From assembly GCF_900105945.1 (NCBI RefSeq), contig NZ_FNSO01000004.1, forward strand, positions 4,216,001 through 4,280,000: a stretch of 64,000 bases of DNA, written 5' to 3'. Shown here piece by piece: positions 5,942 through 23,161 of this stretch. The stretch comes from Amycolatopsis tolypomycina (GTDB lineage: Bacteria > Actinomycetota > Actinomycetes > Mycobacteriales > Pseudonocardiaceae). Position numbers and translations under genes: made by a program. Each line of letters begins with the position of its first letter. Position 1 is the stretch's first letter. The notes under the pieces are model-generated. The model was not told where the DNA came from and made no database searches. It saw only the letters and a program-made list of their open reading frames with translations.

Positions 5942-6619
5942 ATGAGCCGGCAGAGTCCTCCTGATCGATCCAGCGCTCGCCGCAGCCCCGCCGCCCGGCC
6001 CACCGACGACGAGCTGCTCGACGCCGCCCGCGCCGTGTTCGCGGAGCGGGGTTACGCCCAGGCCACCATGGGCCTGATCGCCGACCGCGCCGATTCCACG
6101 AAGCCCACCCTCTACGCGCATTTCGGGGACAAGGCCGCGCTTTTCCGGACCACCGTCCGGCGCGAGGTCGCCGCGCTGCGCGCCTGGGTGATCAGCGCCC
6201 ACGAAACCGCGAACACGCGTCCGCTGGAGGAGCGCGTCCGGCTGTCGGTGATGGCCATGTTCGCCTACGCCGGCGCCCACCCCGAAAGTTTCCGGCTGCT
6301 GTTCGATTCGGCCGTCGACGAGATGTCGAACGAGCGCCGCGCGCTGGCCGATTCCATTGCCACGCACGTGATCGGGCAGGTGCGCGAGCACCTGCTCGCC
6401 CACGGCCGCCCGGTCGGTCCCGGCGCGGAGCTGCTCGGGGCGATGATGGTCGGCCTGGTCGGGCGGGCCGCGATGCACGTGTCCCACTCCCCCGGCGTCG
6501 ACCCGATCGCCGCGGGCGAGCTGGCCACCGGGTTCGTCATGGCCGCGCTGCGCGGGCTCGACCCGGCGCTGCTGGAGCGGCTCGACACCCCGGACCGGGC
6601 CGGGCAGTGCGCCACCTGA
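5942..6619 (+). CDS. TetR/AcrR-family transcriptional regulator
   Basis: 225 residues. The TetR DNA-binding domain occupies about residues 20-70 ([40 protein letters not shown]), followed by a TetR_C_7-like ligand domain ([13 protein letters not shown]). The first 20 residues are Arg/Ser-rich and disordered. It is transcribed away from the PucR gene across a short shared promoter that carries a perfect inverted repeat, so autoregulation is likely. The secreted cutinase gene follows 190 bp downstream on the same strand. The ligand is unknown. Confidence 0.85.
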
Positions 6620-7540: not shown

Positions 7541-8749
7541 TCAGCAGTTCGCCGGAGCCGGTTCCCCGTTGAACCGCTTGACGATCCATTGGTGCGCGTC
7601 GGCGTTGCCGGCGAGAATGCCACTGGCGTGCTCGGCCACGTAGGTCGTCCACTGCTCACGGACCCCGGCCGCGCAGTACGCCCGGTGCAACGCTTCCGCC
7701 TGCGGCGTGTTCACGATTTCGTCGACGCTCGCGTGGTACTGGAACACGGGCACCCGCGGCGGGTTCGCGCCCAGCTTGTTCTGCGCGAGCCGCGCCTGCC
7801 ACTGCGGTGTCCCCAGCGGGTTCGACGTCGTGAAATCGCTGATCTTCTTGAAGGAATAGTTCAGCAGCAGTTCCGCTGTGCACGCGTTCTTCTTCGCGTC
7901 GGCGAGCTGCTGACGGCCGGTTTCGTTGAGGAACGAATCGAGCCGCAAATCCGGGTACGCCGCGTCCAGACCGACCGCGGCGAAGGCCAGGAACCCGAAG
8001 CCGAGGTAGCCGTCGAGACCCTTCGAGACCTCCGTCAGGTCGGCCGGGACACCGCCCGCGACGACGCCGACGACGTTCAGCTCCGGCGCGTACGCGGGCT
8101 GCTTCTCCCCGGCCCACATCGATCCGCCGCCGCCCTGCGAGTAGCCCTGGAAGATCACCTTGGCGCCGCGGGACAGCCGGGTGGCCGGCAGGTCCTGCGC
8201 CGCGCGCACCGAGTCGATCACGGCCGGGCCCATGGACTGCCCGGTGATGTAGGTCGGCACGGTCGCCGGCGAATAGCCCTCGTAGTCGGTCACGGCGACC
8301 GCGTAGCCGCTGGACAGCGAGTCGTTGATGGCCGGCTGGTCGTACAGCGTGCCGCGTTCCATCGCCTTCGACGCCGTGCACTTGAACGCCGGGCCCTGCG
8401 TGCCGACGGCGTAGCCGATGATCGGCGCCCTGGCCGGGTCGACGCCCTTGGGCACGAGGATCGTGCCGGTCACGGCGTTCCGGTTCCCGAGCGCGTTGGT
8501 CGAGAGGTACATGACCTGCCAGGCGTCGGCGTTGAGCGCGTTCAGCAGCGGTACCGTGGGCCGCCAGCGGATGACGTCACCCGGTTTGCCTGCCGGGAGC
8601 GGCGACGGCGGGGTGTAGAACGAGTCGTCGAACGGTCCGGGCAGCAGCGGCGCCGCGCCGGCGGGCGGGCTCGCGGCCGCCACGCCCAGCGCCACCAGGC
8701 AGCAGGTCAGGAGCGCCGAAAGCACGGCACGACAACGGGCAGGCTTCAC
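7541..8749 (-). CDS. Secreted lipase (LIP family, Candida antarctica lipase A type)
   Basis: About 402 residues with a signal peptide (ALLTCCLVALGVAAASPPAGA). The secretory-lipase fold carries YAVGTQGP, the TDYEGYS segment, the nucleophile elbow GYSQGGG, Asp in HASVDEIV and a C-terminal His in VAEHASG or DAHQWI. Of several in-frame starts (TTG 8761, GTG 8752, GTG 8749), GTG 8749 has the best spacing to GGAGG. It is the last gene of the lipid operon, 30 bp after the Ag85-like esterase, and ends at the strong hairpin. It probably hydrolyses or transfers acyl groups of exported lipids; the substrate is inferred. Confidence 0.85.
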   Translation of the reverse strand: MKPARCRAVLSALLTCCLVALGVAAASPPAGAAPLLPGPFDDSFYTPPSPLPAGKPGDVIRWRPTVPLLNALNADAWQVMYLSTNALGNRNAVTGTILVPKGVDPARAPIIGYAVGTQGPAFKCTASKAMERGTLYDQPAINDSLSSGYAVAVTDYEGYSPATVPTYITGQSMGPAVIDSVRAAQDLPATRLSRGAKVIFQGYSQGGGGSMWAGEKQPAYAPELNVVGVVAGGVPADLTEVSKGLDGYLGFGFLAFAAVGLDAAYPDLRLDSFLNETGRQQLADAKKNACTAELLLNYSFKKISDFTTSNPLGTPQWQARLAQNKLGANPPRVPVFQYHASVDEIVNTPQAEALHRAYCAAGVREQWTTYVAEHASGILAGNADAHQWIVKRFNGEPAPANC

Positions 8750-8779
8750 CACAACCTCCAAACGGGGAAAGGGAACCGC

Positions 8780-9751
8780 TCAGGCCGGGAGGCCGAGCGC
8801 GCCGGCCAGGACCGGCCAGGACTGGTGCAGGGCCCGCTGCCAGTACGGCCAGCTGTGCGTGCCGGGCCCGTAGTAGTCGACGGTCGCCGGGATGCCGGCG
8901 GTCCGCAGGCGGTCGGTGAAGCTGCGGGACGACATCTCCGCCGTCGACTCCAGGAAGTCCGCCTGGTTCGGCGGATCGAGCGGCCCGGTCTGCCCGTTGC
9001 CGCAAGAGACGTAGAGCGCGGTGCCGCGCAGCTGGTCGACGTGGTCGTACGGGTTGTTGGCCGTCCAGAGCGTCTTCAACCCGAACGCGTCGCCCCAGAG
9101 GTTGAGGTAGTTGTAGAACCCGGCGCGCGCCAGGATGCCGATGATCCAGACCGGGAGCCCCGGGTAGAGCGTGTTCGGCACCCCGCTGTAGGAGGCGGCC
9201 GCGCCGAACATCCCCGGGTGCTTGAACGCGTACGCCATCGCGCCGTACCCGCCGATCGACAGCCCGGCGACCGCGCGGCGCGTGCCACCGCGGTAGCCGC
9301 GTTCGACGATCTGGCGCACCTCGGCGGTGTGGAAGGTGTCCCAGTCCGGGGTGTTCCAGAGGCCGAGGTTCCACCACTTCGTGTACATCCCCGCGGCCCC
9401 GTCCGTCGGCATCACGACCAGCGCGTCCTTGGCCGCGGTGAACGCCTTGACGTCGGTGAACTGGTCCCACGAGCGGTAGTCGACCGGCTCGCAGCAGCCG
9501 TGCAGCAGGTACAGCACGGGCCAGGTCCGGGTCGGCTGCGCCGCCCAGCCGGACGGCACGAGCAGCCGCACCATCCCGGTGGTGCCCAGTGCGGGCGAGC
9601 TGATCTGCAGGTCGACGGTCCGGGCGTCCAGCCAGGTTTCCTGGACGACTTTCGCGCCGTCGTCGGCCACGGCCGGGCTCGCCTGGGCCGGCGCCACGGC
9701 ACTGGCGAGCAGGAGGACGACGGAAGACGCCAGCACGGCGATCCGCTTCAT
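8780..9751 (-). CDS. Antigen 85-like secreted esterase/acyltransferase
   Basis: 323 residues: a signal peptide (cleavage near AQAS, residue 25), then an esterase D/antigen 85 alpha/beta hydrolase. Visible are YLLHGCCEP, the nucleophile elbow GLSIGGYGA with Ser165, and a C-terminal GPGTHSWPYWQ carrying the catalytic His in the same setting as Ag85 GTHSWEYW. In mycobacteria, Ag85 enzymes transfer mycoloyl groups between trehalose and arabinogalactan. Here the gene starts nine bases after the AccD4-like gene, in one operon with the Pks13-like PKS. It may therefore transfer that PKS product at the cell surface. A plain esterase is the alternative. Confidence 0.83.
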   Translation of the reverse strand: MKRIAVLASSVVLLLASAVAPAQASPAVADDGAKVVQETWLDARTVDLQISSPALGTTGMVRLLVPSGWAAQPTRTWPVLYLLHGCCEPVDYRSWDQFTDVKAFTAAKDALVVMPTDGAAGMYTKWWNLGLWNTPDWDTFHTAEVRQIVERGYRGGTRRAVAGLSIGGYGAMAYAFKHPGMFGAAASYSGVPNTLYPGLPVWIIGILARAGFYNYLNLWGDAFGLKTLWTANNPYDHVDQLRGTALYVSCGNGQTGPLDPPNQADFLESTAEMSSRSFTDRLRTAGIPATVDYYGPGTHSWPYWQRALHQSWPVLAGALGLPA

Positions 9752-9760
9752 GGTGACTCC

Positions 9761-11341
9761 TCAGAGGGGGATGTTCCCGTGTTTCCGGGCCGGCAGGCTC
9801 TGGCGTTTGGTGCGCAGCGCCCGCAGTGCCCGCGCCACCTGGAGGCGGGTCTGCGACGGCGTCACGACCTGGTCGACGTACCCGCGCTCGGCGGCCAGGT
9901 AGGGGCCGCCGTGGCGCTTGCGGTACTCGTCGGTGAGCCGGCGGTGGGCCGCGTCGCGCTCTTCCGGCGGCAACGCGGCCAGCTCGCGCCGGTAGAGCAC
10001 GCGCGCAGCGCCTTCGGCACCCATCACCGCGATCTCCGCGGTCGGCCAGGCCAGCACGGCGTCGGCGCCGAGGTGCTTGGAGCCCATCACGGCGTAGCCG
10101 CCGCCGTAGGCCTTGCGGACCACCACGGTCACCTTCGGCACGGTCGCCTCGGCGTAGGCGTAGATCAGCTTGGCGCCGCGGCGGATGATCCCGGCGCGTT
10201 CCTGATCCGTGCCCGGCAGGTAACCCGGGACATCGGCCAGGGTGAGCAGCGGGATCGAGAACGCGTCGCAGAAGCGCACGAACCGCGCCGCCTTCTCCGA
10301 CGCGTCGATGTCGAGCACGCCGGCCTGGTGCCGCGGCTGGTTCGCCACGACGCCGACCGTGTGGCCCTGCACCCGGGCGAAGGCGCAGATGATGTTGGCC
10401 GCGAAAGCGCCGTGCACCTCGGTGAACTCGCCGTCGTCGACCAGCGCGGCGATCAGCTCGGCCATGTCGTAGGTCTGGTGCGGCGAGTCGGGCACCAGCC
10501 GGTCGAGCGCGAGGTCGGCGGCGGTGAGCCCGGCGCTGCTGTCGTCGGCGTAGGCGGGCGCGGGGTCGAGGTTGTTGGCGGGCAGGTAGCCGAGCAGCGT
10601 CTTGACCCAGTCGACGGCGTCCTCCTCGTCGGCCGCGCGGTGGTGGGCGTTGCCGGCGACCTCGCTCTGCACGGCCGCGCCGCCGAGCTCCTGCGCGGTG
10701 ACGCGCTCGCCGGTGACGGCGTGCACGACGTCCGGGCCGGTGACGAACATGTGCGAGGTGTCGTCGACCATCACGGTGAAGTCGGTCATCGCGGGCGCGT
10801 AGACCGCGCCGCCGGCGCACGGGCCCATGATCATCGAGATCTGCGGGACGACCCCGGAGGCGTGCGCGGTCCGGCGGCCGAGCTCGGCGTAGTACGCCAG
10901 CGAGACGACGCCTTCCTGGATGCGCGCGCCGCCGGAGTCGTTGATCCCGACGACCGGGCAGCCGAGCGTCATGGCCAGGTCCATCAGCTTGAGGACCTTT
11001 TCGCCGGAGACCTCCCCGAGGCTGCCGCCGAAGACGCTGAAGTCCTGCGAGAAGACGCAGACCTGCCGCCCGTCGACGGTGCCGTGCCCGGTGACGATGC
11101 CGTCGCCCCACGGCCGGTTCGTGTCCGTCCCGAACTCGGTGCACCGGTGCCGCGCGAACTGGTCGAGCTCCACGAAGGACCCGGGGTCGAGCAGCAGCCC
11201 GATCCGTTCCCGCGCGGTCAGCTTCCCTTTGGCGTGCTGCCGGTCGACGGCTCGCTTTTCGGCGATCCGCACGGCTTCGTCCTGCCGGGCGGCGAGATCG
11301 GCGATCCGGAAGGCGGTGGTCGGGGTGAGCTCGTCCATCAC
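9761..11341 (-). CDS. accD4: AccD4-like acyl-CoA carboxylase carboxyltransferase (beta) subunit
   Basis: 526 residues, two crotonase-like halves of a carboxyltransferase: N-half DSGGARIQEGV and GPCAGGAVYAP oxyanion region, C-half LADVPGYLPG...YGGGYAVMGSKHLGAD. In mycolate producers, AccD4 with AccA3 carboxylates a long-chain acyl-CoA to give the 2-carboxyacyl-CoA extender used by Pks13. The gene follows the Pks13-like PKS with a 1-4 bp overlap (GTG 11341 or ATG 11338 at GTGATG), the order found in mycobacteria. No biotin carboxylase subunit lies in the window, so a shared AccA must be encoded elsewhere. Propionyl-CoA carboxylase activity is an alternative. Confidence 0.85.
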   Translation of the reverse strand: MMDELTPTTAFRIADLAARQDEAVRIAEKRAVDRQHAKGKLTARERIGLLLDPGSFVELDQFARHRCTEFGTDTNRPWGDGIVTGHGTVDGRQVCVFSQDFSVFGGSLGEVSGEKVLKLMDLAMTLGCPVVGINDSGGARIQEGVVSLAYYAELGRRTAHASGVVPQISMIMGPCAGGAVYAPAMTDFTVMVDDTSHMFVTGPDVVHAVTGERVTAQELGGAAVQSEVAGNAHHRAADEEDAVDWVKTLLGYLPANNLDPAPAYADDSSAGLTAADLALDRLVPDSPHQTYDMAELIAALVDDGEFTEVHGAFAANIICAFARVQGHTVGVVANQPRHQAGVLDIDASEKAARFVRFCDAFSIPLLTLADVPGYLPGTDQERAGIIRRGAKLIYAYAEATVPKVTVVVRKAYGGGYAVMGSKHLGADAVLAWPTAEIAVMGAEGAARVLYRRELAALPPEERDAAHRRLTDEYRKRHGGPYLAAERGYVDQVVTPSQTRLQVARALRALRTKRQSLPARKHGNIPL

Positions 11342-14300
11342 CGCACCACCGCCCCGAGCCGGTCGGCCAGCACGTGCACGTGCGGCGGGTCGATCATCGA
11401 GACGTGGTCACCCGGGACCCGCACGACTTCGAGGTCCGTGCAGTGTTCGTCCCAGCCGAGGGTGTCGTCGGTGCGCAGGTAGCGGGGGTCCAGCGCGGTG
11501 GTGAGCGGGTGGGGTTGTCCGGCCCGCAGCAGGACGACACGTCCGCCGTAGCGCCGCGGTGTGTAGCGTTCCGCCACCCGGGCGTCCACATAGGACTCGT
11601 ATTGGTGTTTGAGCACGCCTTCGCCGAGGTCCGGCACCTGCTCGGCCAGCTTGGTCATCACCCAGCGGAGCTGCGCGTCCTCGTCCAGGTTCGCGAGGTC
11701 GGCGCGGGGCACCGCGAACGGGACGCCGTAGGTGCGGGAGATGTGGCCGGCGAACCGGTCGAAGCGGTCGAGCAGTTCGTCGGCCGGCGTGCCGGTGGCG
11801 GGCAGCGGCAGGATGGTGTCGATGAGGAAGACGAGTTCGGTGGGTTTCAGGTGGCGCGCGGTCTCGTAGGCGAGGCAGCCGCCGAACGACCAGCCGCCCA
11901 GCCGGTAGGGACCGTGGGGCTGGACGCCCCGGATCAGCTCGGCGTACCGGGCGGCTTTGGTTTCGACGGTGGTCAGGTCGTCGAGCCGTTCGAGCGCGTA
12001 GACCGGCGGGCCTTCCGGGAGCAACCGGGCGAGTTCGCGGTAGACGTTGGCGGTGCCGCCGGCCGGGTGGAAGAGGAAGACGGGATCGGCGACACCGTCA
12101 CGCAGGAGCCGCACGGGACCACCCCCGTGGCCTTCGAGTTCCGCCCGCAGGAGATCGGCCATGGCGGCGATGGTGGGGGTGGCGAAGAGCCGGGCCGGTG
12201 CGGGGACGGCGGTGAGGTGTTCGGCGAAGGCGGCGTGCAGCCGGCGGGCTTGGGTGGCGTCGCCGCCGAAGGGCTCGTGGACGCTCGGTTCGGGGGTGCC
12301 GAGGATGGCGCGCCAGTGCCGGGCGACCCAGCGCTCGGCGGGATCCCGCGGTCCGACGGCAATCGGTGCAGCAGCTCCAGCCGACTCGGTGACCACGGGC
12401 TCGGCGAGCTTCCGCGGCGCGACGGCGACAGGTGCAGGAGCTCCGGCCGACTCGGCGACTTCCCGCGACCCGGCACCAGCTCCGGCCGACTCGGCAACCT
12501 CCCCCGTCCCGCCGGCCGGCGCGTCCGGCCCGAACCCGGCCTGCTCGGCAAGGTACCCGGCCAGCTCGGCCAAGCTCGCCCCCCGCAGCAGCAACGGAAT
12601 CGGCAGCGGCACCCCGAAGTCCTGTTCCACCGCACCGCGCGCCCGCATCGCCGACAGCGAATCCAGCCCCAGCCGCGTCAACGGCACCGTCCGGTCGACC
12701 TCCGCCAAGCCCAGCAGGTCCGCGACCAGCCCCGCCAGGTGATCGCCGATCGCCGTGCGGGCAGCTTCCGGTGTCGCCGAACGCAGGGCGTCCAATCCGT
12801 CCCATGTGGACGATTCCGCCGGCGGGGAGAACAGGCCGAAGAACGGCCGCTCCCCCAGCCGTGGGAACAGCGCGAGCACCGTCTCCGAGTCCACCCGGGC
12901 CACGCCGGTCGCGCCGCGGTCGCGTGCCAGCACGAACTCCAGCGCCGCCAGCGCTTCCTCGGTGCCGAGCGGGTCCAGCACCGGGTTGGCCGCCCCGGCT
13001 GCCGCGCCGACCTCGCCCCAGGCGCCCCAGCCGATCGTCGCCGCCGGGAGGCCGTGTGCGCGGCGCCACGCGACCAGCGCGTCGGCCCAGGCGTTCGCCG
13101 TCGCGTAGGCCGCTTGGCCCGGCGAGCCGAACAACGCGGCCGCCGACGAGTACACCAGCCACCAGTCGAGGTCGTGCCCCGCGGTCGCTTCGTGCAGGCG
13201 CCACGCGCCCAGCGCCTTCGGCCGCCACACGGCCTCGAGCGCGTCGGCGTCGAGACTGATCGCGGCGCCGTCGGCCAGGACACCGGCGGCGTGCAGCACC
13301 CCGCGCAGCGGCACGCCCCCGTCGACGGCCACCGCGACCAGCGTCTCGGCCGTCCCCGGCGCGGCGATGTCGCCCGGCACCACCCGGACGTCGACGCCGA
13401 GCTCGCCGAGCCCGGGATCGGCGGCGTGCCTGCTGTTCAGCACCAGCCGCGTCGCGCCCCGCGCGGCCAGCCACTTCGCGGCCGCCAGGCCCAGCCCGCC
13501 GAGGCCGCCGGTGATGACGTACGCGCCGTCGCGGACCGGCTCCCGCACCGGGTCGCCGGCAGCGGGACGGCCCAGCCGCCGCACGTACCGCACGCCACCG
13601 CGCCAGGCGATTTCGTCGTCCGGCCCGTCGGCGCGGATCTCGTCATGGAGCCGGTCGGTGCCGTCGAGGTGGCTGACGCGCAGTTCGGGGTGCTCGAAGG
13701 CCAGCACGCGCACGAGCCCGCGCAGCGCGGCCAGTCCGGGGTCGCCCGGCTCTCCCGGTTTGATGGCGTGTGCACCATCGCTCACCAGCCACAACCGCGG
13801 CGCCACGGGGAGTTCGGCCAGTTCGGCGACGACGCCGGACAGGGTTTCGACGAGCCTCGCGCCTCGCACGGGGTCGGGTTCGGCGACGACTCCGGCCAAC
13901 GTCGCGCCGCGCACAGGGTCGAGCTCGGCGGCAGCTCCGGCCAACGTCGCGCCATGCGCCGGGTCCCGCTCAGCGGCAGCTCCGGCCAACCTCGCGCCAC
14001 ACGCCGGGTCCCGCTCGGCAGCGTCGCCGGCCAGGGGCTCGACCCCACCACCGAGCAGGGCGAGGACCGCGGTCGGTTCCCCGTCGCGCAGCAGCTTCGC
14101 GAGTTCAGCACGGTCGCCGAGGCGGGCGGTCCGGACGTCCTCACCCGGGAACTCCCGGTCGTCCTCGGACAGCACGATCCAGCGCTGCGCACGCTCGGGC
14201 CCGCGGGGGCGCCCCCCGTTTTCCACTCTACCGGCCGGCACCGACAATTCCGGCGCGGCGGGCAGCGGCACCGGCTGCCAGGCCGCCTCGAACAGCAGGC

Positions 14301-17300
14301 GCGTCACCGCCGCGTCGCGGTAGGGGCGGCAGTAGACGTCGCGGAACTCGACCAGGACCGCGTCGGTGGCGTCGACCAGCTGGACGCTGCCGAGCACGCC
14401 GTCGCCGGACTCCTGGAGGACCGCGTCCACCCGCACTCCGCGGCGGGGGTCGCCGGCGATCAGCACCTCGCCCATGCTGAGCGGGAGGTACAGCACCTCC
14501 GCGTCGCCGACCGCCGCGGCCAGGGCGTGCAGGCAGGCGTCGGCGAGTGCCGGGTGCAGCACGTACGCGGGGTGGTCGCTTTCCGGCTGGGCGATCGACG
14601 CCGACGCGCGGCCCGGTGCGGCGACCACCCGGCGCAGGCCGCGGAAGGCCGGGCCGTAGGACTGGCCCAGCTCCGCCAGCGCGCGGTAGACGTCGAACGG
14701 TTCCCCGGTCGTTTCCCCGAACGGTGCCGACGGCGTGCCGCCCGTGGCGAGTCGCGCGGTGGCGTGCCGGACCCACGATCCGGCTCGCGTGTGGACGCTC
14801 AGCTCGGTCCCGCGCAGGCTCGTCGTCACCTCCGTGTGTTCGCCGAGCGGAAGGACCTCCTGCAGTTCGAGGTCGCGGACGCGGCCGCCCGGTCCGGCGG
14901 CGGCGAGCGCGAGTTCGAGGAACCCGGTGGCCGGGAACACCGGGGTGTCCCCGACGGTGTGGCCGGCCAGCCACGGCAGCGCGGCGATCCCGACGTCACC
15001 GCGCCACAGGTGACCGCCGCCGGGGTCCTCGATGTGCACGCCGAGCAGCGGGTGCGTCCCGGCGGCGCGGACGGCCGGGCGCGGCCAGAAGCGTTCGTGC
15101 CGCCAGACCGGGCCGGGCAGCTCGACCGGCGGCGTCTGCGGGCGGCCGGCCGGCACTCCGGGACGGCTCAGCGCGAGGTTGTCACCGCCGAGCACGTGCA
15201 GCCGGGCGAGGCTGGTGAGGAACGCCGTCCGCTCGTCGATCCGGCGGCTCGCCGAGGGCAGGCCGAGCACACCGGACTGCTCGATAGCGGCGAGGGCCAC
15301 CGGGTGCGGGGAGATCTCGACGAAGACCGTGTGCCCGTCGGCGGCCGCGGCGGCCAGTGCCTGGCTGAACCGCACCGGGCGGCGCAGGTTCGCCGCCCAG
15401 TACTCGGCGTCGAAGGTGGGCTGATCGTCGGAAACGCTGCTGTAGCACCGGATTTCGGGCGTTGCGGGAGTCAGCCCGGCGATCGCGGCGCGGAACGGGC
15501 CGAGCACCGGCTCGACGGCGGCGGAGTGCCCGGCCCCGCCGACCGGCAGCCTGCGGGCGAGCCTGCCGAGGCCTTCGGCGTGCGCGACCACGGCGTCGAC
15601 GCGGTCGGCGGCCCCGCTGACGGTGCACTGGGTCGGCGAGGCGTAGACGGCGATGGTGACGTCGGGGAAGGCCGCGAGCTCGGCGGGCGTGAGTTCGACG
15701 ACGGCCATGGCCCCGCCACCGCGTTCGTCGAGTTCGGCGAGCAGCCGGGCGCGGGCGGCCATGACCCTGAGGCCGCCGGCGACATCGAGCGCCCCGGCCA
15801 CGACGGCGGCGGCGACCTCGCCCATCGAGTGCCCGAGCACAGCTGCGGGGACGACGTCGTGCGCCCGCCACAGGGCGGCCAGGGCGAGCTGCATCCCGAA
15901 CAGGGCGAGCTGGGTCGCGGCGAGGTCGGGGAGGTCGTGTTCGAGGGCTTCGCGCAGGGAGAACCCGGCTTCGGCGCGGAAGACGGGGTCGAGGGCCTCG
16001 ATTTCGGCCCGGAAGGCGGGCTCGGCTCCCAGCAACAGCCGGCCCATCCCGGACCACTGCGAGCCATAACCCGAGAAAACGAAGACGACACCGCGCTCGC
16101 CCCAGCGCCCCAATGTGGCGTTGGGTGCGCTCAACGCACCGAACGCCACATTGGGTGCGTCAGACGCACCGAACGCCACATTGGGGCGCTCGGTACCGGC
16201 CGCCAGCGAACGCAGAGCCTCCACCACTTCACCCCGGCTCTCGCCGACCACCGCTCCGCGTACCGGCAGGTGCTCCCGCCGGTGCGCCAGGGTCGCCGCG
16301 ACGGCGTCCAGGGGTGCCTCGCTCTCCTCCAGCCACTCCGCCAGCTCGCCCGCCCGTGCCCGCAGCACCTCCGCCGACCGGGCCGACAGCGCGAACACCT
16401 GCGGCCCACCGGCGCCCGCCCGGGGCGGGAACGCCGCCGCCGGCCACTCCTCCAGCACCACGTGCGCGTTGGTCCCGCCGAAGCCGAACGCCGACACGCC
16501 CGCCCGCGCCGTCCCCGAGTACCGCGGCCAGTCCGTCCCCGTTGCCACCACGCGCAACGCCGTGAAGTCGATGTGCGGGTTCGGCTCGCGGAAGTGCAGG
16601 CTCGGCGGCAGCCGCCGGTGCGTCATCGCCAGCACCACCTTGAGCAGCCCGGTGATCCCGGCCGCGCCTTCGAGGTGGCCCAGGTTGCTCTTCACCGAAC
16701 CGATCAGCAACGGACGCTCCGGCGCCCGTCGCTCCCCGAGCACCGCCGCCAGCGCGCCCGCTTCCAGCGGGTCACCCAGCGGTGTCCCGGTCCCGTGCGC
16801 TTCGACGTAGTCCACAGAGGACGGATCGACGCCTGCCGTGGCGTAGGCGTCGCGCAGCAACGCCGCCTGGGCTTCCGGGTTCGGCGCCGTCAGGCCGTTG
16901 GACCGGCCGTCGGAATTCACCGCGCTGCCGCGGATCACCGCCAGCACCCGGTCGCCGCGGGCCGCCCGCAGGGGCTTCAGCACGACCACGCCGCAGCCTT
17001 CGCCGCGGGCGATGCCGTCGGCTCCGGCGTCGAACGGCTTGCAGCGGCCGTCCGCGGCCAGCACGCCGGCCCGGTGGAACCCGGCCGTGATGCCCGGGGA
17101 GAGCAGGACGTTCACCCCGGCGACCAGCGCGAGCTCGCTCTCGCCGCGGCGCAGGCTCTGCACCGCCTGGTGCACCGCCACCAGCGACGACGAACACGCG
17201 GTGTCCAGCGTGAGACTCGGCCCGCGCAGGTCGAGCAGGTACGACAGCCGGTTCGCCGCGATGCTCGCCGCCGCGCCCGTGCCGGACCAGACGTCGACCC

Positions 17301-17949
17301 TCGCGACGTCGGTCATCGTCAGCGAGCCGTACTCGGTCGCCGACAGCCCGACGAACACGCCGGTCCGGCTGCCGCGCAGGCTCGACGGCGGGATGCCCGC
17401 GTGCTCCAGCGCCGCCCAGACGACCTCCAGGAGGATCCGCTGCTGCGGGTCCATCGCTTCGGCTTCCCGCGGCGTGATGCCGAAGAACCCCGCGTCGAAC
17501 CCGGCGACGTCGGCGAGGAACCCGCCGCGCGCCGGCACACCGGCGAGGTCCGCCGCCGGGGCGAACGTCTCCCAGCGGCCTTCGGGAACATCGCCGATGC
17601 CGTCGCCGCCCGCGGCGAGGAAGCGCCAGAACGCCTCCGGGGACTCGATGCCGCCCGGCAGGCGGCAGCCGAGGCCGACGACGGCGATCGGTTCGCCGTC
17701 CTCGGGCAGCGGTACGGCCGCGGCAGCGACGTCCACATCGGACAGGTGATGGGCCAGCGCGGCGATCGTCGGGTACTGCCACACCAGGGTCGGGGCCAGC
17801 GGGCGGCCGACGAACTCGCCGAGGTCGGCCGCGAGGCTCGTCGCGTCCCGGGAGGACAGTCCGGTTTCGTGCAGCGGCCGGTCGGGGTCCACGTCGCCGA
17901 GCCGCGCGGTGAGCCACGCGCGGATCGCCGCGGCGTCCGGCGCGCTCAT
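11338..17949 (-). CDS. Pks13-like type I polyketide synthase with DH-KR loop: ACP-KS-AT-DH-KR-ACP-(degenerate CP)-TE
   Basis: 2203 residues. ACP1 (1-75, GLSSRDAT, Ser33) resembles the atypical Pks13 N-terminal ACP. The KS (85-505) has Cys252, His385 and His425. The AT (620-920) has GHSMGE with Ser708 and an unusual GAGH at 805-808. The DH (965-1210) has His997 in a variant HxxxDxxxxP motif and Asp1137-x3-His1141. The KR (1255-1690) has GGLGGLG and Ser/Tyr1615/Asn1619. ACP2 has Ser1764. A third carrier-like domain (1870-1940) reads GGDA in place of GGDS. The TE has Ser2021, Asp2044 and His2182. The start ATG overlaps the FAAL stop (ATGA); the frame is open further upstream. Canonical Pks13 is ACP-KS-AT-ACP-TE, so the reductive loop is extra. 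Inferred product: a 2-alkyl-3-hydroxy or 2-alkyl-2-enoyl lipid. Confidence 0.9.
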   Translation of the reverse strand: MSAPDAAAIRAWLTARLGDVDPDRPLHETGLSSRDATSLAADLGEFVGRPLAPTLVWQYPTIAALAHHLSDVDVAAAAVPLPEDGEPIAVVGLGCRLPGGIESPEAFWRFLAAGGDGIGDVPEGRWETFAPAADLAGVPARGGFLADVAGFDAGFFGITPREAEAMDPQQRILLEVVWAALEHAGIPPSSLRGSRTGVFVGLSATEYGSLTMTDVARVDVWSGTGAAASIAANRLSYLLDLRGPSLTLDTACSSSLVAVHQAVQSLRRGESELALVAGVNVLLSPGITAGFHRAGVLAADGRCKPFDAGADGIARGEGCGVVVLKPLRAARGDRVLAVIRGSAVNSDGRSNGLTAPNPEAQAALLRDAYATAGVDPSSVDYVEAHGTGTPLGDPLEAGALAAVLGERRAPERPLLIGSVKSNLGHLEGAAGITGLLKVVLAMTHRRLPPSLHFREPNPHIDFTALRVVATGTDWPRYSGTARAGVSAFGFGGTNAHVVLEEWPAAAFPPRAGAGGPQVFALSARSAEVLRARAGELAEWLEESEAPLDAVAATLAHRREHLPVRGAVVGESRGEVVEALRSLAAGTERPNVAFGASDAPNVAFGALSAPNATLGRWGERGVVFVFSGYGSQWSGMGRLLLGAEPAFRAEIEALDPVFRAEAGFSLREALEHDLPDLAATQLALFGMQLALAALWRAHDVVPAAVLGHSMGEVAAAVVAGALDVAGGLRVMAARARLLAELDERGGGAMAVVELTPAELAAFPDVTIAVYASPTQCTVSGAADRVDAVVAHAEGLGRLARRLPVGGAGHSAAVEPVLGPFRAAIAGLTPATPEIRCYSSVSDDQPTFDAEYWAANLRRPVRFSQALAAAAADGHTVFVEISPHPVALAAIEQSGVLGLPSASRRIDERTAFLTSLARLHVLGGDNLALSRPGVPAGRPQTPPVELPGPVWRHERFWPRPAVRAAGTHPLLGVHIEDPGGGHLWRGDVGIAALPWLAGHTVGDTPVFPATGFLELALAAAGPGGRVRDLELQEVLPLGEHTEVTTSLRGTELSVHTRAGSWVRHATARLATGGTPSAPFGETTGEPFDVYRALAELGQSYGPAFRGLRRVVAAPGRASASIAQPESDHPAYVLHPALADACLHALAAAVGDAEVLYLPLSMGEVLIAGDPRRGVRVDAVLQESGDGVLGSVQLVDATDAVLVEFRDVYCRPYRDAAVTRLLFEAAWQPVPLPAAPELSVPAGRVENGGRPRGPERAQRWIVLSEDDREFPGEDVRTARLGDRAELAKLLRDGEPTAVLALLGGGVEPLAGDAAERDPACGARLAGAAAERDPAHGATLAGAAAELDPVRGATLAGVVAEPDPVRGARLVETLSGVVAELAELPVAPRLWLVSDGAHAIKPGEPGDPGLAALRGLVRVLAFEHPELRVSHLDGTDRLHDEIRADGPDDEIAWRGGVRYVRRLGRPAAGDPVREPVRDGAYVITGGLGGLGLAAAKWLAARGATRLVLNSRHAADPGLGELGVDVRVVPGDIAAPGTAETLVAVAVDGGVPLRGVLHAAGVLADGAAISLDADALEAVWRPKALGAWRLHEATAGHDLDWWLVYSSAAALFGSPGQAAYATANAWADALVAWRRAHGLPAATIGWGAWGEVGAAAGAANPVLDPLGTEEALAALEFVLARDRGATGVARVDSETVLALFPRLGERPFFGLFSPPAESSTWDGLDALRSATPEAARTAIGDHLAGLVADLLGLAEVDRTVPLTRLGLDSLSAMRARGAVEQDFGVPLPIPLLLRGASLAELAGYLAEQAGFGPDAPAGGTGEVAESAGAGAGSREVAESAGAPAPVAVAPRKLAEPVVTESAGAAAPIAVGPRDPAERWVARHWRAILGTPEPSVHEPFGGDATQARRLHAAFAEHLTAVPAPARLFATPTIAAMADLLRAELEGHGGGPVRLLRDGVADPVFLFHPAGGTANVYRELARLLPEGPPVYALERLDDLTTVETKAARYAELIRGVQPHGPYRLGGWSFGGCLAYETARHLKPTELVFLIDTILPLPATGTPADELLDRFDRFAGHISRTYGVPFAVPRADLANLDEDAQLRWVMTKLAEQVPDLGEGVLKHQYESYVDARVAERYTPRRYGGRVVLLRAGQPHPLTTALDPRYLRTDDTLGWDEHCTDLEVVRVPGDHVSMIDPPHVHVLADRLGAVVR
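13848..14037. repeat. 45-bp coding minisatellite inside the PKS gene (about four copies)
   Basis: A 45-bp unit repeats with exact period: the shared core TCCGGCCAAC starts at 13891, 13936 and 13981, with a divergent copy near 14026. It encodes a 15-residue unit of the form AAERDPxxGATLAGA at residues 1310-1365, in the structural half of the KR region. The frame is kept, so copy number can vary without truncating the enzyme. Confidence 0.85.
16106..16188. repeat. Palindromic REP-like element within the PKS KS-AT linker
   Basis: Alternating copies of CCCAATGTGGCGTT and its reverse complement lie at 16107-16121, 16142-16155 and 16172-16185, separated by GGTGCG/CGCACC arms that can pair. In the PKS frame it reads as NVAFGASDAPNVAFGALSAPNATLG-type repeats (residues 590-613) between the KS-AT adaptor and the AT. 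Its hairpin-forming structure suggests insertion of a repetitive genomic element that happens to keep the frame. Confidence 0.7.
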
Positions 17950-19691
17950 CCGAGCCGCCGTGCGGGCAGCGAGCCGTCCAGATAGGACACCCGGCAGCGG
18001 GCTCTGCTGATCTTGCCGCTGGAGGTGCGGGGCACCTCGCCCGGTGCCAGGAAGACGACGTCGTGCAGGCGCAGGCCGTGCCCGGCCGACACCGCCGCCC
18101 GCAGCGCCGCCGTCGCCGCGGCGATGCCGGCGTCGGCGCCCTTCGCGCGTTCGAGGACGACGACGGCGGCTTCCCCCTCGTCGCCGTCGATCGCGAAGGC
18201 CGCGGCCGAGTGCGGCCGGACGGCCGGGTGTTCCTCGACGGTCTGCTCGATGTCCTGCGGGTAGTGGTTGCGGCCGTCGACGACGACCAGGTCCTTCAGC
18301 CGTCCGGTCACGAACAGCTCGCCGTCGGAGAGCACGCCGAGGTCGCCGGTCGCCAGCCAGCCCTCGCCGGTGTCCGGATCGCGCGGGGGCAGGCCGAAGG
18401 CGGCCGCCGACGCTTCCGGCCGGCCCCAGTACCCGCGGCCGACGTTCGGGCCGCTGACCTGGATTTCGCCGACCTCGCCCGGTTCGGCGGGACGCCCGGT
18501 CACCGGGTCGGTGATCCGCACCCGCTGCCCGACCGGGCGGCCGCACGAGACGAGCGTCGTCGCGGACGCGCCCGGGCCGGCCGGCACCGCGTACCCGGCC
18601 GCCAGCCGCGCGCGGTCGAAGGTGGCCTGCCGGGGCGGTTTCCCCGCGTCCGTGACCGAAACCAGCACGGTGGCCTCGGCCAGGCCGTAGGAGGACCGGT
18701 GCACCTCCGGCCGCAACCCGCACCCGGCGAAGGCCGCGTGGAACTTCGCGATCGTGGCCGGCAGCACCGGTTCGCTGCCGTTGATCAGCGAGACGACCCG
18801 GCTCAGCTCCAGGTACACCTTGTCGGCCTCGGAGACGCGGGACGCGCAGTAGGCGTAAGCGAAGTTCGGGGCCGCGCTGATCGCGCCGGGGCTCGCCGAG
18901 AGCGCCCGCAGCCAGCGCACGGGCCGTTCGAGGAACGCCAGGGGGTCCATCAGGACCGACTCCAGCCCGCCCGCCATCGGCGCGCCGATGCCGAGGATCA
19001 GGCCCATGTCGTGGAACAGCGGCAGCCAGCTGACCGCCGACGTCGTCCCGCTTTCGGCGCCGTAGGCGGCACACGCCTGGCGGGCGTTGGCGAGGACGTT
19101 GCCGTGGGTCAGCACGACCCCGGCGGGCGAGCGCGTCGACCCGGACGTGTACTGCAGGTACGCCGGGGCGTCCGGATCGGGCGCCGGCCACTCGCGCGGC
19201 GCGGCCGTCGGCACGGCGTCGACGTCGACCACCACCGGGTCGACCGGGGAACCGGCGAGGAACCGGGTGACCGCCTCGTGCTCCCCGGCCGTGGTCAGCG
19301 CGACGCGCGGGCCGCAGTCGGCGAGCGCCGCGGCCAGGCGGCCCGCGTGCCCGGGCAGGCCGGGCGCGAACAACGGCACCGCGACCAGCCCGGCCCGCAG
19401 CGCACCGAGGAACGCGACGACGTAGTCCGCGGACTGCCCGGCCAGCACGGCCGCCCGCTCCCCCGGACCGGCCACTTCGGACAGCCGGGCCGCGACGGCC
19501 TCGACCCGGTCGTCGAGCTCGCGCCAGGTGAGCGTGACCGCCCGGCCGTCGGCGCCGTCGCGGTGGTCGAGGTGGGTCACGGCGATGCGGTCGCCGAGGC
19601 GGCGCGCCCAGTGACCCAGCAGGGTCGCGAACGACTCGCCCGCGGCGACGGGGGCACCGGTGACGGGAACCGGCCGGGAAATGGTTTCCAA
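17946..19691 (-). CDS. FadD32-like fatty acyl-AMP ligase (FAAL)
   Basis: About 581 residues of the ANL superfamily. P-loop LQYTSGSTRSPAGVVLTHGN, the FAAL-typical WLPLFHDMGLI, SLINGSEPV, SYGLAEAT and the C-terminal TGRLKDLVVVDGRNHYPQDIE hinge are visible. FadD32 activates the meromycolic chain as acyl-AMP and loads it on the Pks13 N-terminal ACP. Here the gene directly precedes the Pks13-like PKS with a 4-bp overlap. Start: TTG 19691 is chosen because GAGG lies five bases upstream and a promoter-like sequence precedes it; an in-frame TTG at 19751 would add 20 residues overlapping that promoter. Acyl chain length is unknown. Confidence 0.87.
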   Translation of the reverse strand: METISRPVPVTGAPVAAGESFATLLGHWARRLGDRIAVTHLDHRDGADGRAVTLTWRELDDRVEAVAARLSEVAGPGERAAVLAGQSADYVVAFLGALRAGLVAVPLFAPGLPGHAGRLAAALADCGPRVALTTAGEHEAVTRFLAGSPVDPVVVDVDAVPTAAPREWPAPDPDAPAYLQYTSGSTRSPAGVVLTHGNVLANARQACAAYGAESGTTSAVSWLPLFHDMGLILGIGAPMAGGLESVLMDPLAFLERPVRWLRALSASPGAISAAPNFAYAYCASRVSEADKVYLELSRVVSLINGSEPVLPATIAKFHAAFAGCGLRPEVHRSSYGLAEATVLVSVTDAGKPPRQATFDRARLAAGYAVPAGPGASATTLVSCGRPVGQRVRITDPVTGRPAEPGEVGEIQVSGPNVGRGYWGRPEASAAAFGLPPRDPDTGEGWLATGDLGVLSDGELFVTGRLKDLVVVDGRNHYPQDIEQTVEEHPAVRPHSAAAFAIDGDEGEAAVVVLERAKGADAGIAAATAALRAAVSAGHGLRLHDVVFLAPGEVPRTSSGKISRARCRVSYLDGSLPARRLG

Positions 19692-19723
19692 TGCATCCTC
19701 GCAGAGAGCGTTTACCGGCGCAG

Positions 19724-19751
19724 TGAATAACCGCGCCGATGCGGTTGTCAA
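19724..19751 (-). promoter_or_regulatory. Candidate internal promoter for the FAAL-PKS genes
   Basis: On the minus strand, TTGACA (19746-19751) and TATTCA (19724-19729) are separated by 16 bp in the 93-bp gap between the MFS stop and the FAAL start. It could let FAAL, PKS and AccD4 be expressed without the transporters. The assignment rests on consensus only. Confidence 0.4.
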
Positions 19752-19784
19752 CGATTCAATCGTGGATACTCATGGGGAAACGGG

Positions 19785-21170
19785 TTACGGGACAGCACGT
19801 TTGTCACGCGGCGACGAGGTCTCGGCGGGGCGGGTGCCCGGGATGCGCACGGCCAGCAGCGCGCCGGCGAACGTCAGCCCGGCCGCGGCGAGCAGGCCCG
19901 CGGTGTACCCGCCGGCCAGTGCCGCCCCGGCGGGCACGCCCGCGTCGAGCCGCGCCGCGCGCACCGCGGTCAGCACCGCGCCGATCAGCGCGACGCCGAG
20001 CGCGCTCGACAGTTCCCGGGCCGCGGTGAGCCAGCCCGACGCCGTGCCGGAATGCCGCTGCGCCACCACGTCCAGCGCGTGCGACGTCATCGGGACGGTG
20101 AACGCCGAGCCCGCGCCGATCAGGACCATGCCCGGCACCCGCGGCCACAGCGCGGGAACGTGGTTCACCGCCGCGAGGGCGAGCAGCCCCGCCCCGACCA
20201 CGGCCAGCCCGGCCGCGACGGTCCGAAGTGGACCGTGCCGGGCGGTGGCCGCCGGCACCAGCGGCGTCGCGGCCACGACCGCCACCGCGACCAGCACCAG
20301 GGGCAGCCCGGCGCCGGCCGGGCCGAGCCCGAGGAAGTCCTGGTGCAGCAACGGCGTGAAGAAGAAGACGCCGGAGATCCCCAGTCCCCACAGCAGCTGC
20401 AGGCCGAGCGAGCCCAGGAACACCGGGTTCCCGGTCAGGGCCGCCGGAACCAGCCGGCCGGCTGCCCGCCGTTCCCGGACGAGGAACGCCACCCCGGCCG
20501 CGATCCCGGCCGCGAGCAGCGGAAGCCGCCACCGGGGTTCGGCCAGCGCGGTGGTGACCAGTACCAGGCTCGCCGTCACCAGGACCATCGCCGCCGGCGG
20601 TGGCGTGCGGGTGCCCGCGTCGCGGCCGGGCGCCACGGTGCCCGGCAGCAGGGCGAGCATCGCGGCCACGAACGGCAGGTTGACGTAGAAGATCCAGGGC
20701 CAGCCCCAGTATTCGCTCAGGACACCGCCGAGCGCGGGCCCCAGGGCCAGCGCGGCCGCCAGGCACGCGGTCCAGACCGCGGCGCCGAGCGTCCGGCCGC
20801 GCGCGTCGAGGTTGGTGCGCAGCAGGCTCAGCAGCCCCGGCACCAGGAACGCGGCCGCGATCCCCTGGAGCACCCGGGCGGCGACGAGCAGCCACGCCGT
20901 GCCGGCCAGGCCACCCGCCGCCGCGCCGAAGCCGAACAGCAGGAGGGCACCGGTCAGGGCCGGCCGCCGTCCCCAGCGGTCGACCAGCGCCCCGGCCGCG
21001 GGCAGGAGCCCGGCGAACGGGAGCATGTAACCGAGCGCGATCCACGGCAGCGCCTCGACGGCCAGGCCGAGATCGCGGGCGACCGACGGCGCTCCCGCGG
21101 CGACGATCGTGTTGTCCAGCGTCGTCACGAACGCGCCGAGCGCGAGCACGACCAGGGTCCGCCGCGTCAT
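19785..21170 (-). CDS. MFS transporter (DHA2/EmrB-QacA-like)
   Basis: 461 residues with about 12-14 membrane helices. The N-terminus MTRRTLVVLALGAFVTTLDNTIVAAGAPSV has the D-N-T-I motif of the DHA2 drug:H+ antiporter family. The first cytoplasmic loop has GALVDRWGRRPALT (motif A), and helix 5 has GPALGGVLSEYWGWPWIFYVNLP (motif C). The start ATG overlaps the MmpL stop (ATGA), coupling the two transporters. The open frame extends upstream, but the overlap and the DHA2 N-terminus fix this start. Sited in a lipid-synthesis operon, it may move a precursor or headgroup; drug efflux is the alternative. Confidence 0.85.
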   Translation of the reverse strand: MTRRTLVVLALGAFVTTLDNTIVAAGAPSVARDLGLAVEALPWIALGYMLPFAGLLPAAGALVDRWGRRPALTGALLLFGFGAAAGGLAGTAWLLVAARVLQGIAAAFLVPGLLSLLRTNLDARGRTLGAAVWTACLAAALALGPALGGVLSEYWGWPWIFYVNLPFVAAMLALLPGTVAPGRDAGTRTPPPAAMVLVTASLVLVTTALAEPRWRLPLLAAGIAAGVAFLVRERRAAGRLVPAALTGNPVFLGSLGLQLLWGLGISGVFFFTPLLHQDFLGLGPAGAGLPLVLVAVAVVAATPLVPAATARHGPLRTVAAGLAVVGAGLLALAAVNHVPALWPRVPGMVLIGAGSAFTVPMTSHALDVVAQRHSGTASGWLTAARELSSALGVALIGAVLTAVRAARLDAGVPAGAALAGGYTAGLLAAAGLTFAGALLAVRIPGTRPAETSSPRDKRAVP

Positions 21171-23161
21171 CGCACGCTCCCCGCCAGCTCGCCGGCGGCC
21201 ACGGCCTTCCGGCCCGGGAACCACCAGTTCGCCGCGCCCAGCCGGGCCATCACCGCCGGGACGAGCACGCACCGGACCACCACGGCGTCCAGCAGCACGG
21301 CGACGGTCAGCCCGACGCCCGCCTCGCGCACCACCCGGGCGTCGACGAAGGCGAACGACACGAACACCAGCGCCATGATCAGCGCGGCCGCGGTGATGGT
21401 CCGGCCCGTCGCGGCGACGCCGTCGACGATGGCGGCGCGGGTGTCGCCGTGGCGGCGCCAGGCCTCCTGGATGCGGGCGATGAGGAAGACCTCGTAGTCC
21501 ATCGACAGTCCGAACAGCCCGGCGAACAGGAACACGGGCAGGTAGGGCTCGATCGGGGCGCCGAAGGCGAACACCACGGCGCCGGTCGTCGCGGCCGCGG
21601 TCAGCAGGTTCATCAGCGCCGCGGTGAGCGGGATCAGCACGCTGCGGAACACCCAGGCCAGCAGCAGGACGGAGATGCCGACGACGGCCGCGAGGAACAG
21701 CGGCAGGCGGTCGGTGATCGCCGCGGAGAAGTCGGCCCGTGCCGCGACGACCCCGCCGACGTGGGCGTCCGGGCTGCCGATGACCCGGGCCATCACCCGC
21801 GTCGAGGCGAGCAGCTCACCGGTCGCCGGATCGCTCGGCCCGGTCCGCGGGATCACCGTGAGCAGCCAGACGTCCCCGGGCAGCGTGGCGGGCGGTCCGA
21901 CGTCGGCGCTGGCCAGGAGTGCTTCCCGCAGGTCGCCCACCGCCTCGCCGCCCCCGGTCCCGACCACCAGCAACGGCGCGTCGGCGCCCGGCCCGAAGCC
22001 CTCTTCCAGGAGCTCGGCGGCGGTCCGCGTGACGCTGCCGGGCGGGTCGAGCGCGGCGTCGGGCACGCCCAGCCGCAGCCCGGTCATCGGCAGCGCGAGC
22101 ACGGCCACGACCAGCAGGGCGGCGAGGGTGTACGGGCCGGGCCGGGCGGTCACCGACCGGGCCAGCCGGGCCCACCGGCCGTCCCCGCCGTCCGGGCGCA
22201 CGCGCATCCGGCGGGCGAGGAGCCGCAGCAGCGCGGGCAGCAGGGTCAGCGCGGCGAACGCGGTCAGCAGCACCGAGACCGCGGCGGCGACCGCGATCCC
22301 GTCCAGGAACGGCATGCCGACGGTGAACATCCCGGCCAGCGAGACGCACACGGTGACGCCGGCGAAGACCACGCTGCGGCCGGAGGTCGCGGCCGCGACG
22401 GCCAGGGCCGCCGCCGGTGGGGCGCCTTCCCGGCGGCCCTGCCGGTAGCGGGTGAGCACGAACAGCGCGTAGTCGACGCCGACGCCGAGCCCGAGCAGCG
22501 CGGCGATCTCGGTGCTGATCTTCGGCACGGTCATGACGTGCGACAGCAGCGTCACGGCGGCCAGGGCGCAGCCGACCGAAACGGCGGCGGTGAGCACCGG
22601 GAGCAGCACGCAGGCGAGCGAGCCGAAGGCGACCAGCAGCACCACGGCCGCGGCGAGCAGCCCGATCCCGGCGTTGCCCAGGTCGGGCGCGGCGGCCGTC
22701 ATCGCGGCGAGCTCGCCGGACACCCCGGCGGTGAGGCCGTCGGCGGCACGGACCGCGGCGGCCAGCGCGTCGGCCGTCTCCTGCCCGAGGTCGGCGGCCG
22801 GCGCGTCGAAGCGCACGGTGAGCACCGCCGTCCGCCGGTCGGCGGACAGCTGCCCCGGCGGCGGGTCGACGGCCGTGACGTGCGGCAACGCCGCCAGCCG
22901 GGCGGCGAGCGCGTCGAGCCGGGCGCGGCCCGGGCCGCTGTCGACGGGGCCGTCCGGCGAGCGGACGACGACGCGTTCCCCGGCGCCGGTGGCGCCCAGC
23001 AGGTTCGCCGCCGCGGTGCTGTCGGCGGCGGGCAGGTCCACCGTGTCGCGGAAGGCCGGGCCGGCGTGCAGCGCGGCGGCACCGAGCCCGCCCAGCGCCA
23101 CCAGCCACAGCACGATGACGACGCCGGCCCGGCGGAAACACCAGGAAACGAGCGCCGTCAT
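21167..23161 (-). CDS. MmpL/RND-type lipid transporter
   Basis: 664 residues with two six-helix MmpL repeats. After TM1 (VVIVLWLVALGGLGAAAL) comes an extracytoplasmic domain with a DPPPGQLSADRRTAVL segment. The first core repeat has GLGVGVDYALFVLTRYR and the second GLFGLSMDYEVFLIARIQEAW; these carry the proton-relay Asp-Tyr pairs typical of MmpL. It is shorter than mycobacterial MmpL3 and lacks a long C-terminal tail, closer to compact actinomycete MmpLs. The start is ATG after GGAGGAG; upstream in-frame sequence is intergenic. As first gene of the operon it is the likely exporter of the PKS-derived lipid, as MmpL3 is for trehalose monomycolate. Confidence 0.88.
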   Translation of the reverse strand: MTALVSWCFRRAGVVIVLWLVALGGLGAAALHAGPAFRDTVDLPAADSTAAANLLGATGAGERVVVRSPDGPVDSGPGRARLDALAARLAALPHVTAVDPPPGQLSADRRTAVLTVRFDAPAADLGQETADALAAAVRAADGLTAGVSGELAAMTAAAPDLGNAGIGLLAAAVVLLVAFGSLACVLLPVLTAAVSVGCALAAVTLLSHVMTVPKISTEIAALLGLGVGVDYALFVLTRYRQGRREGAPPAAALAVAAATSGRSVVFAGVTVCVSLAGMFTVGMPFLDGIAVAAAVSVLLTAFAALTLLPALLRLLARRMRVRPDGGDGRWARLARSVTARPGPYTLAALLVVAVLALPMTGLRLGVPDAALDPPGSVTRTAAELLEEGFGPGADAPLLVVGTGGGEAVGDLREALLASADVGPPATLPGDVWLLTVIPRTGPSDPATGELLASTRVMARVIGSPDAHVGGVVAARADFSAAITDRLPLFLAAVVGISVLLLAWVFRSVLIPLTAALMNLLTAAATTGAVVFAFGAPIEPYLPVFLFAGLFGLSMDYEVFLIARIQEAWRRHGDTRAAIVDGVAATGRTITAAALIMALVFVSFAFVDARVVREAGVGLTVAVLLDAVVVRCVLVPAVMARLGAANWWFPGRKAVAAGELAGSVR

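Follow-up and report, generated by a model that had tools for sequence, protein, structure and literature searches.

Why does Amycolatopsis tolypomycina carry an operon resembling the core of mycolic acid synthesis, when Pseudonocardiales, according to the part of PMC6194230 available, have arabinogalactan and no mycolates? The operon lies in a stretch of 64,000 nucleotides (contig NZ_FNSO01000004.1, positions 4,216,001 to 4,280,000), hereafter the window, and encodes an MmpL-family transporter, a major facilitator superfamily (MFS) transporter, a fatty-acyl-AMP ligase (FAAL), a polyketide synthase (PKS), a carboxyltransferase (CT), an esterase of the Ag85/PS1 family and a lipase. A previous reading from the letters alone (the sequence-only reading) had named these genes after their mycolate counterparts and predicted that two acyl chains are joined into an alpha-branched product. 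Our analysis indicates that the operon, which appears to be a relative of the mycolate machinery, is not the mycolate core itself, and that it probably constitutes a self-contained system for an alpha-alkyl-branched fatty acid, formed by a mycolate-like condensation with different parts.

Pfam matches and open reading frame starts placed all seven genes on the minus strand from 23161 to 7541, in the order MmpL, MFS, FAAL, PKS, CT, PF00756 esterase and LIP lipase. The families, order and strand therefore agree with the operon as originally claimed, except that the lipase (7541-8761) sits outside the span of 8780-23161 assigned to it. Four-base overlaps join MmpL to MFS, FAAL to PKS and PKS to CT, and the remaining gaps are short (about 33 bases between MFS and FAAL, 9 between CT and esterase, and 18 between esterase and lipase). 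At the center of the operon, the FAAL (17946..19751, minus strand; Pfam AMP-binding, 216 bits; start codon uncertain) is followed by a single-module PKS of 2203 residues (11338..17949, minus strand), whose ATG overlaps the FAAL stop, and by the CT, an acyl-CoA carboxylase beta subunit (9761..11341, minus strand; Pfam, 632 bits) that overlaps the PKS stop. The host genome comprises 10.36 Mb, and its nearest named relatives by FAAL are Amycolatopsis, with 93% identity to the FAAL of A. kentuckyensis; this ranking covers the best 80 of 575 relatives by FAAL likeness, which also form the family sample used below.

Pfam and alignments defined the PKS architecture as ACP-KS-AT-DH-KR-ACP-pseudoACP-TE, all encoded on the minus strand. 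The N-terminal acyl carrier protein (ACP; 17710..17949) retains its serine in GLSSRD, the ketosynthase (KS; 16420..17700) has DTACSSS as judged by eye, and the acyltransferase (AT; 15220..16107) bears the motifs GHSMGE and GAGHS. The dehydratase (DH; 14260..15072) possesses the active-site His and Asp, the ketoreductase (KR; 12970..13632) possesses Ser, Tyr and GGLGGLG, the C-terminal ACP (12520..12792) retains its serine in GLDSL, and the thioesterase (TE; 11341..12117) has Ser, Asp and His. Two serine-bearing ACPs, KS, AT and TE are thus shared with Pks13, as the label 'Pks13-like' implied, whereas the DH and KR had been overlooked. Pfam detected no enoylreductase (ER) domain in the window PKS. 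With a KR and a DH built into the synthase, a reduced and perhaps unsaturated product is to be expected.

Two further observations concern these domains in relatives. Directly before the TE lies an ACP-like stretch without the carrier serine (12145..12378, minus strand), which is retained in Pseudonocardiaceae, Actinopolyspora and G045; the serine is absent in 27 of 28 rows, the exception being L022 and two genomes being counted twice. Moreover, the KR catalytic residues are lost in three relatives (L055, L038 and L041; His or Gln in place of the Tyr, and Ala or Gly in place of the Ser), which suggests that their products may differ. A tblastn search of the PKS against plasmids returned only matches below 60% identity.

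The starter substrate would be a fatty acid activated by the FAAL. Among its best matches in solved structures are FadD32 (419 bits), FadD23, FadD28 and a fatty acyl-adenylate ligase, while CoA synthetases of the other kind match at no more than 111 bits, leaving FAALs as the closest proteins. We predict that the FAAL loads the N-terminal ACP of the PKS. Separately, one large PKS (P0002) contains a FAAL domain within the same protein, matching the window FAAL at 339.5 bits.

The specificity of the CT bears on the extender. Its best solved match was MccB (5inf/5ing; 839 bits), followed by PccB (approximately 745), AccD5 (664) and a chain labelled D4, which we took as AccD4 (513). MccB carboxylates medium-chain acyl-CoA, and the determinants named for it are Gly161, occupied by Phe in PccB, and an Ala at the position of PccB Asp421 (Ray et al., 2016; PMC5187497, in the part available). 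Alignment revealed Gly and Ala at these two columns in the window CT, that is, the MccB-type residues. Among 26 family CTs including that of the window, 19 have Gly/Ala, five have Ala or Ser with Ala and two have Val/Gly; the ten CTs adjoining Pks13 have Gly/Ala (nine) or Ser/Ala (one). Four PccB/AccB-type CTs instead pair Phe with Asp, Cys or Ile, another four have Phe/Tyr and three distant ones differ. Assignment of the CT as a propionyl-CoA carboxylase was rejected, as the PccB Phe and Asp are absent from the specificity columns; likewise, since AccD4 shares both residues, we gave up a reading of the CT as MccB/PccB-like to the exclusion of AccD4.

The AT motif is consistent with this picture. 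YASH or VASH at this position marks methylmalonyl use and HAFH malonyl use, and these are the motifs of most modular and MAS-type ATs, whereas the window AT has GAGHS and ten Pks13 rows have GASHT or GAGHT; a few family ATs diverge, for example AAAH, GAAH or VASH. Since both the CT pocket residues and the AT motif point the same way, the extender is best read as a long alkylmalonyl unit; combined with a FAAL-loaded starter, such an extender implies condensation of two chains. The predicted alpha-branched product from two acyl chains thus holds as the best reading, on the basis of the FAAL with the N-terminal ACP, the CT pocket and the AT motif. Alternatively, the PKS could be an iterative MAS-like enzyme producing methyl-branched fatty acids from methylmalonyl-CoA supplied by a propionyl-CoA carboxylase, an explanation favored by the whole-length comparison of the PKS with solved structures, in which MAS ranks first (904 bits), ahead of Pks13 (864 bits). 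We consider it highly improbable and rejected it given the AT motif (GAGH rather than VASH or YASH), the missing ER and a KS that falls outside the MAS clade, to which the CT adds its lack of the PccB Phe and Asp.

In the two-chain pathway that we favor, the FAAL would adenylate a fatty acid and load it onto the N-terminal ACP, while the CT, acting with a biotin subunit encoded elsewhere, would convert a medium or long acyl-CoA into an alkylmalonyl-CoA. The AT would then load the alkylmalonyl unit onto the C-terminal ACP, and the KS would condense both chains once. Reduction of the beta-keto group by the KR, probably followed by dehydration by the DH, would yield a 2-alkyl-2-enoyl product, or a 2-alkyl-3-hydroxy product if the DH is idle. 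The TE would release the acid, either free or onto an acceptor, and export by the MmpL, the MFS transporter or both might precede acyl transfer by the secreted Ag85/PS1-like esterase to an acceptor, probably one other than trehalose.

To place the KS, we built a quick tree of 103 rows, from which the duplicate L133 was omitted, and two careful trees of 95 rows each. The first careful tree excluded L134 and kept the long-branch rows L066, L124, L132 and L140; in the second, long-branch and duplicate rows were removed, 17 loci were thinned (15 family, 2 Pks13) and 22 extra modular KSs were included, drawn from a protein search with PKS residues 1-505 that ranks multi-module PKSs by summed score. 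In all three trees, Pks13 joined the FAAL-linked KSs of actinobacteria without mycolates, and modular and MAS-type KSs fell elsewhere (72 rows, support 94/92, in the first careful tree; 53 rows, 100/90, in the second, or 51 rows, 99/94, after excluding two deep FAAL-linked rows). The window KS accordingly sides with Pks13 rather than with ordinary modular or MAS-type PKSs, although the Pks13 rows form their own clade (100/100) with the window KS outside it. Pks13 may be either nested in the core family or sister to it. Branches nesting Pks13 inside the core family received 94/90 and 97/93 in the first careful tree and 89/78 in the second, and an approximately unbiased test of the core family without Pks13 as a single clade gave p values of 0.021 and 0.134 for the two sets, respectively. 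Two Pks13 KS rows are nearer to the family (mean identities 55.0 and 54.2%) than to the outgroups (46.5 and 45.5%). Separately, the KSs nearest to Pks13 were those of three Solirubrobacterales loci (L059, L068 and L098; 91/95 in the first careful tree, 88/95 in the second).

The CT and esterase trees gave related pictures. In the CT tree, built without three distant CTs and two duplicates, AccD4 grouped with 24 of 26 family CTs (92/93), and PccB-type CTs lay outside a 36-row group (93/86); the AccD4 rows formed a clade (100/100) and the window CT fell in another. In the esterase tree, which contained three pairs of identical rows, a subset of the family esterases and the outgroup L004, L006 and L085, one clade of 31 rows (100/99) held the PF00756 esterases from six genomes of mycolate type and was adjoined by the FAAL-linked esterase clade.

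Could the locus nevertheless be a true mycolate locus, such that this Amycolatopsis makes mycolic acids? The FAAL-PKS-CT order and an Ag85-family gene are common to both, but we give this explanation almost no credence and rejected it on the Pks13 cut-off and the domain content. The window PKS scored 1243 bits against the Pks13 model NF040607, short of its cut-off of 2100, which the mycolate maker C. glutamicum, one of 14 control genomes, passes; furthermore, the window PKS has DH and KR, and Pseudonocardiales are reported to be without mycolates (PMC6194230, in part). No single host gene exceeded the Pks13 cut-off, a 5135-residue multi-module frame doing so by summed pieces only. Of 150 genomes drawn from the order, 19 have Pks13 above cut-off, all of family f8, and three other genomes with matches to the model (G045, G118 and the host, G000) remain below it. 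The FAAL likewise missed the FadD32 models (496 against 975 bits for NF038339; 471 against 875 for the corynebacterial NF040633), as did the window MmpL the MmpL3 model NF052608 (190 against 1400 bits; the genome's best other gene, 165), and the genome profile search found no host gene above either threshold. These misses of FadD32 and MmpL3 are weak evidence, because C. glutamicum misses NF038339 and the MmpL3 model too. Hence, the labels 'FadD32', 'Pks13', 'AccD4' and 'Ag85' are sound at the level of family and do not extend beyond it.

We then considered how widely the genes occur. FAAL, PKS, CT and esterase were all visible in 18 of the 80 FAAL loci, many of which end at flank or contig ends, and the four-gene loci among the 80 include Amycolatopsis, Saccharopolyspora, Actinokineospora and a few others. 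In 80 Amycolatopsis genomes, the esterase was detected in 60 (E 1e-60) and the CT in 57 (E 1e-220); the two are adjacent, 12 to 217 bases apart, in 52 genomes including the host's own, a count that concerns the CT-esterase pair only and used 53 esterase rows (at least 65% identity) and 54 CT rows (at least 75%). Given the recurrence of CT with adjoining esterase in 52 of 80 genus genomes and of FAAL-PKS-CT-esterase in the 18 loci, the operon is not a chance assembly. Designs vary elsewhere: seven Streptomyces loci combine an esterase with an ACP-KS-AT-TE synthase that gives no DH or KR match, no CT being in view, the three Solirubrobacterales loci have FAAL-PKS-CT with DH present and no KR match, and two Actinoplanes-type loci have KR and no DH.

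The host genome also contains a second cassette at C4:3756405-3764516 (L099, L100), comprising a PF00756 esterase on the minus strand, a FAAL (L100:458-2167) and a PKS with the Pks13 architecture ACP-KS-AT-ACP-TE, KR and DH being absent. It is found as well in A. rifamycinica, A. bullii, A. regifaucium and G118, and its KS joined the Streptomyces FAAL-PKS-esterase loci in the first careful tree (83/90) and not in the second.

The acyl acceptor may be approached through the esterase (8780..9751, minus strand; Pfam Esterase, 116 bits), which has a hydrophobic, signal-like N-terminus as judged by eye. Its best solved matches were PS1 (6sx4; 182 bits) and then Ag85B (90 bits), and alignment showed the Ser-Glu-His triad to be intact. 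The DGLR of Ag85 forms the trehalose site; in the window esterase and its nearest relatives the DGLRA of Ag85/PS1 is replaced by HGCCE, with the Asp and Arg of DGLR absent, and trehalose is for this reason an unlikely acceptor. Streptomyces and Actinomadura are not known to have arabinogalactan, and similar cassettes in both genera speak against arabinogalactan as a general acceptor. It is nonetheless a possible acceptor in the host, because Pseudonocardiales carry it without mycolates. A surface location and sugar esters of the product are possibilities. A further host esterase (C4:3055778-3056716; L002) is 51% identical to that of the window.

The remaining genes concern export and the downstream flank. 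The first gene of the operon encodes a 664-residue MmpL-family resistance-nodulation-division transporter (21167..23161, minus strand; Pfam MMPL, 256 bits over frame 21167-23365) with GGAGGAG 8 bases 5′ of its ATG and MmpL3 as its best solved match (186 bits). Its stop is overlapped by the ATG of the EmrB/DHA2-like MFS gene (19785..21170, minus strand; Pfam MFS_1, 144 bits), which scored 127.5 bits against the NCBIfam EmrB-type model, below the cut-off of 230. The last gene encodes a lipase of the LIP family (7541..8761, minus strand; Pfam LIP, 184 bits; 136 bits to lipase A, 3guu) with a signal-like N-terminus as judged by eye. The cutinase that had been reported nearby was confirmed on the plus strand at 6810..7469 (Pfam Cutinase, 140 bits), convergent with the operon toward the lipase; upstream of it lies a TetR-type regulator (5942..6619, plus strand), and a PucR-type regulator is encoded at 4649..5863 (minus strand). 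Nine of the ten flanks fetched carried the lipase, cutinase, TetR and PucR genes side by side, the lipase or cutinase being split into two frames in two of these; G219 had none of the four. A promoter and terminator scan yielded no promoter-like sites and four terminator-like sites against 3.9 expected by chance. AMP-binding stretches in long plus-strand frames near window positions 37300 and 41500 (matches C4:4253314 and 4257528) probably belong to an unrelated nonribosomal peptide synthetase cluster.

Several observations weigh against a mycolate-related route to a branched envelope lipid. The window KS has a mean identity of 56.7% to Pks13 (n = 8), hardly more than the 54.6% to outgroup PKSs (n = 42), so that raw identity to the window does not reveal the kinship, and MAS outscores Pks13 over the whole PKS, as noted above. 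FadD32 was not beside the window FAAL in the quick FAAL tree, which held only the six FadD32 rows passing the coverage limit. The AccD4 grouping is moderately supported, and the FAAL-linked esterases adjoin those of mycolate makers weakly (91/72) with a thin outgroup. In the DH, the HxxxG motif carries Asp in place of the usual Gly, a position likewise variable in aligned MAS/Pks2-type DHs, and its activity is for this reason uncertain. Finally, 28 of the 80 Amycolatopsis genomes yielded no CT-esterase pair, which implies that the pair is not core envelope machinery, and EmrB-like MFS proteins are typical of antibiotic export as well.

These last points lend themselves to another explanation, in which the same condensation yields a small secreted specialised metabolite, such as an alpha-alkyl beta-lactone, a lipid antibiotic or a signal, rather than an envelope lipid. 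The MFS and MmpL proteins would then both export the product and protect the producer, while the product would be acted on by the esterase, lipase and cutinase or would target them. Besides the patchy occurrence (52 of 80 genomes) and the EmrB-like MFS, albeit under its model cut-off, this explanation draws on the two regulators conserved alongside and on the available part of PMC5187497, where what is probably this cluster is treated as one for a cryptic polyketide. Conversely, an Ag85/PS1-family esterase recurs beside FAAL-PKS across several actinobacterial families, and the nearest outside group of the window esterase, though at that weak support, comprises the esterases of mycolate makers. 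We regard a specialised metabolite as a possible but rather doubtful outcome.

If the FAAL-PKS-CT-esterase cassettes found outside mycolate makers are true kin of FadD32-Pks13-AccD4-Ag85, the condensation step would predate mycolates and extend beyond them, and the relatives would display several designs, with KR and DH, one of the two, or neither. This would also hint at alpha-branched lipids of a class not yet studied, in a genus of importance for antibiotics, and would offer harmless organisms for studying such condensation and acyl transfer. How the mycomembrane arose is still an open question, and the operon may show the source of mycolic acid synthesis. More speculatively, mycolate synthesis might be a specialised branch of a phylum-wide cassette of FAAL, ACP-KS-AT...TE synthase, long-chain CT and Ag85-family acyltransferase for alpha-branched acids, and the product in Amycolatopsis and other Pseudonocardiaceae a short 'proto-mycolate' fixed to the cell surface by the esterase; we hold this broader proposal to be unlikely.

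By title and opening of the abstract, a literature search found no paper on the product of the operon, most subscription journals being outside its coverage. However, in the part available, PMC5187497 describes a cryptic single-module cluster with homologues of MccB and of SamR0482 (acyl-CoA-ligase-type) that is widely conserved in Amycolatopsis. This cluster is very probably the present operon, with which it has in common the MccB homologue, the single PKS module and the wide occurrence in the genus; in that part of the account, no esterase, MmpL or mycolate kinship is mentioned.

Among known systems, the FadD32-Pks13-AccD4 locus offers a close comparison. In 10 of 10 such loci, the FAAL-PKS-CT order and the N-terminal ACP, KS, AT and TE are as in the window, the CT pocket residues and the AT motif GA(G/S)H are shared, and PF00756 genes lie within a few kb at some loci. 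In contrast, the ten Pks13 loci show no DH or KR match, the KS, CT and esterase clades are separate from those of the window, and the window MmpL scores far below the MmpL3 cut-off. Similarly, the window esterase shares its sequence family, Ser-Glu-His and HSWPYW with the Ag85/PS1 mycoloyltransferases, yet it has HGCCE where they have DGLRA and falls outside the mycolate-maker clade. The MAS/Pks2 iterative synthases align with the window PKS over KS-AT-DH and KR, whereas their AT motif is VASH and their KS belongs to a different clade; these synthases have an ER domain and use methylmalonyl units. In lipstatin biosynthesis, a fatty acid and an alkylmalonate are condensed by FabH-like enzymes, not by a PKS. 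MccB, the top solved match, shares both specificity residues with the window CT but serves a modular macrolide PKS, whereas the window CT belongs to a single-module operon with a FAAL and an esterase.

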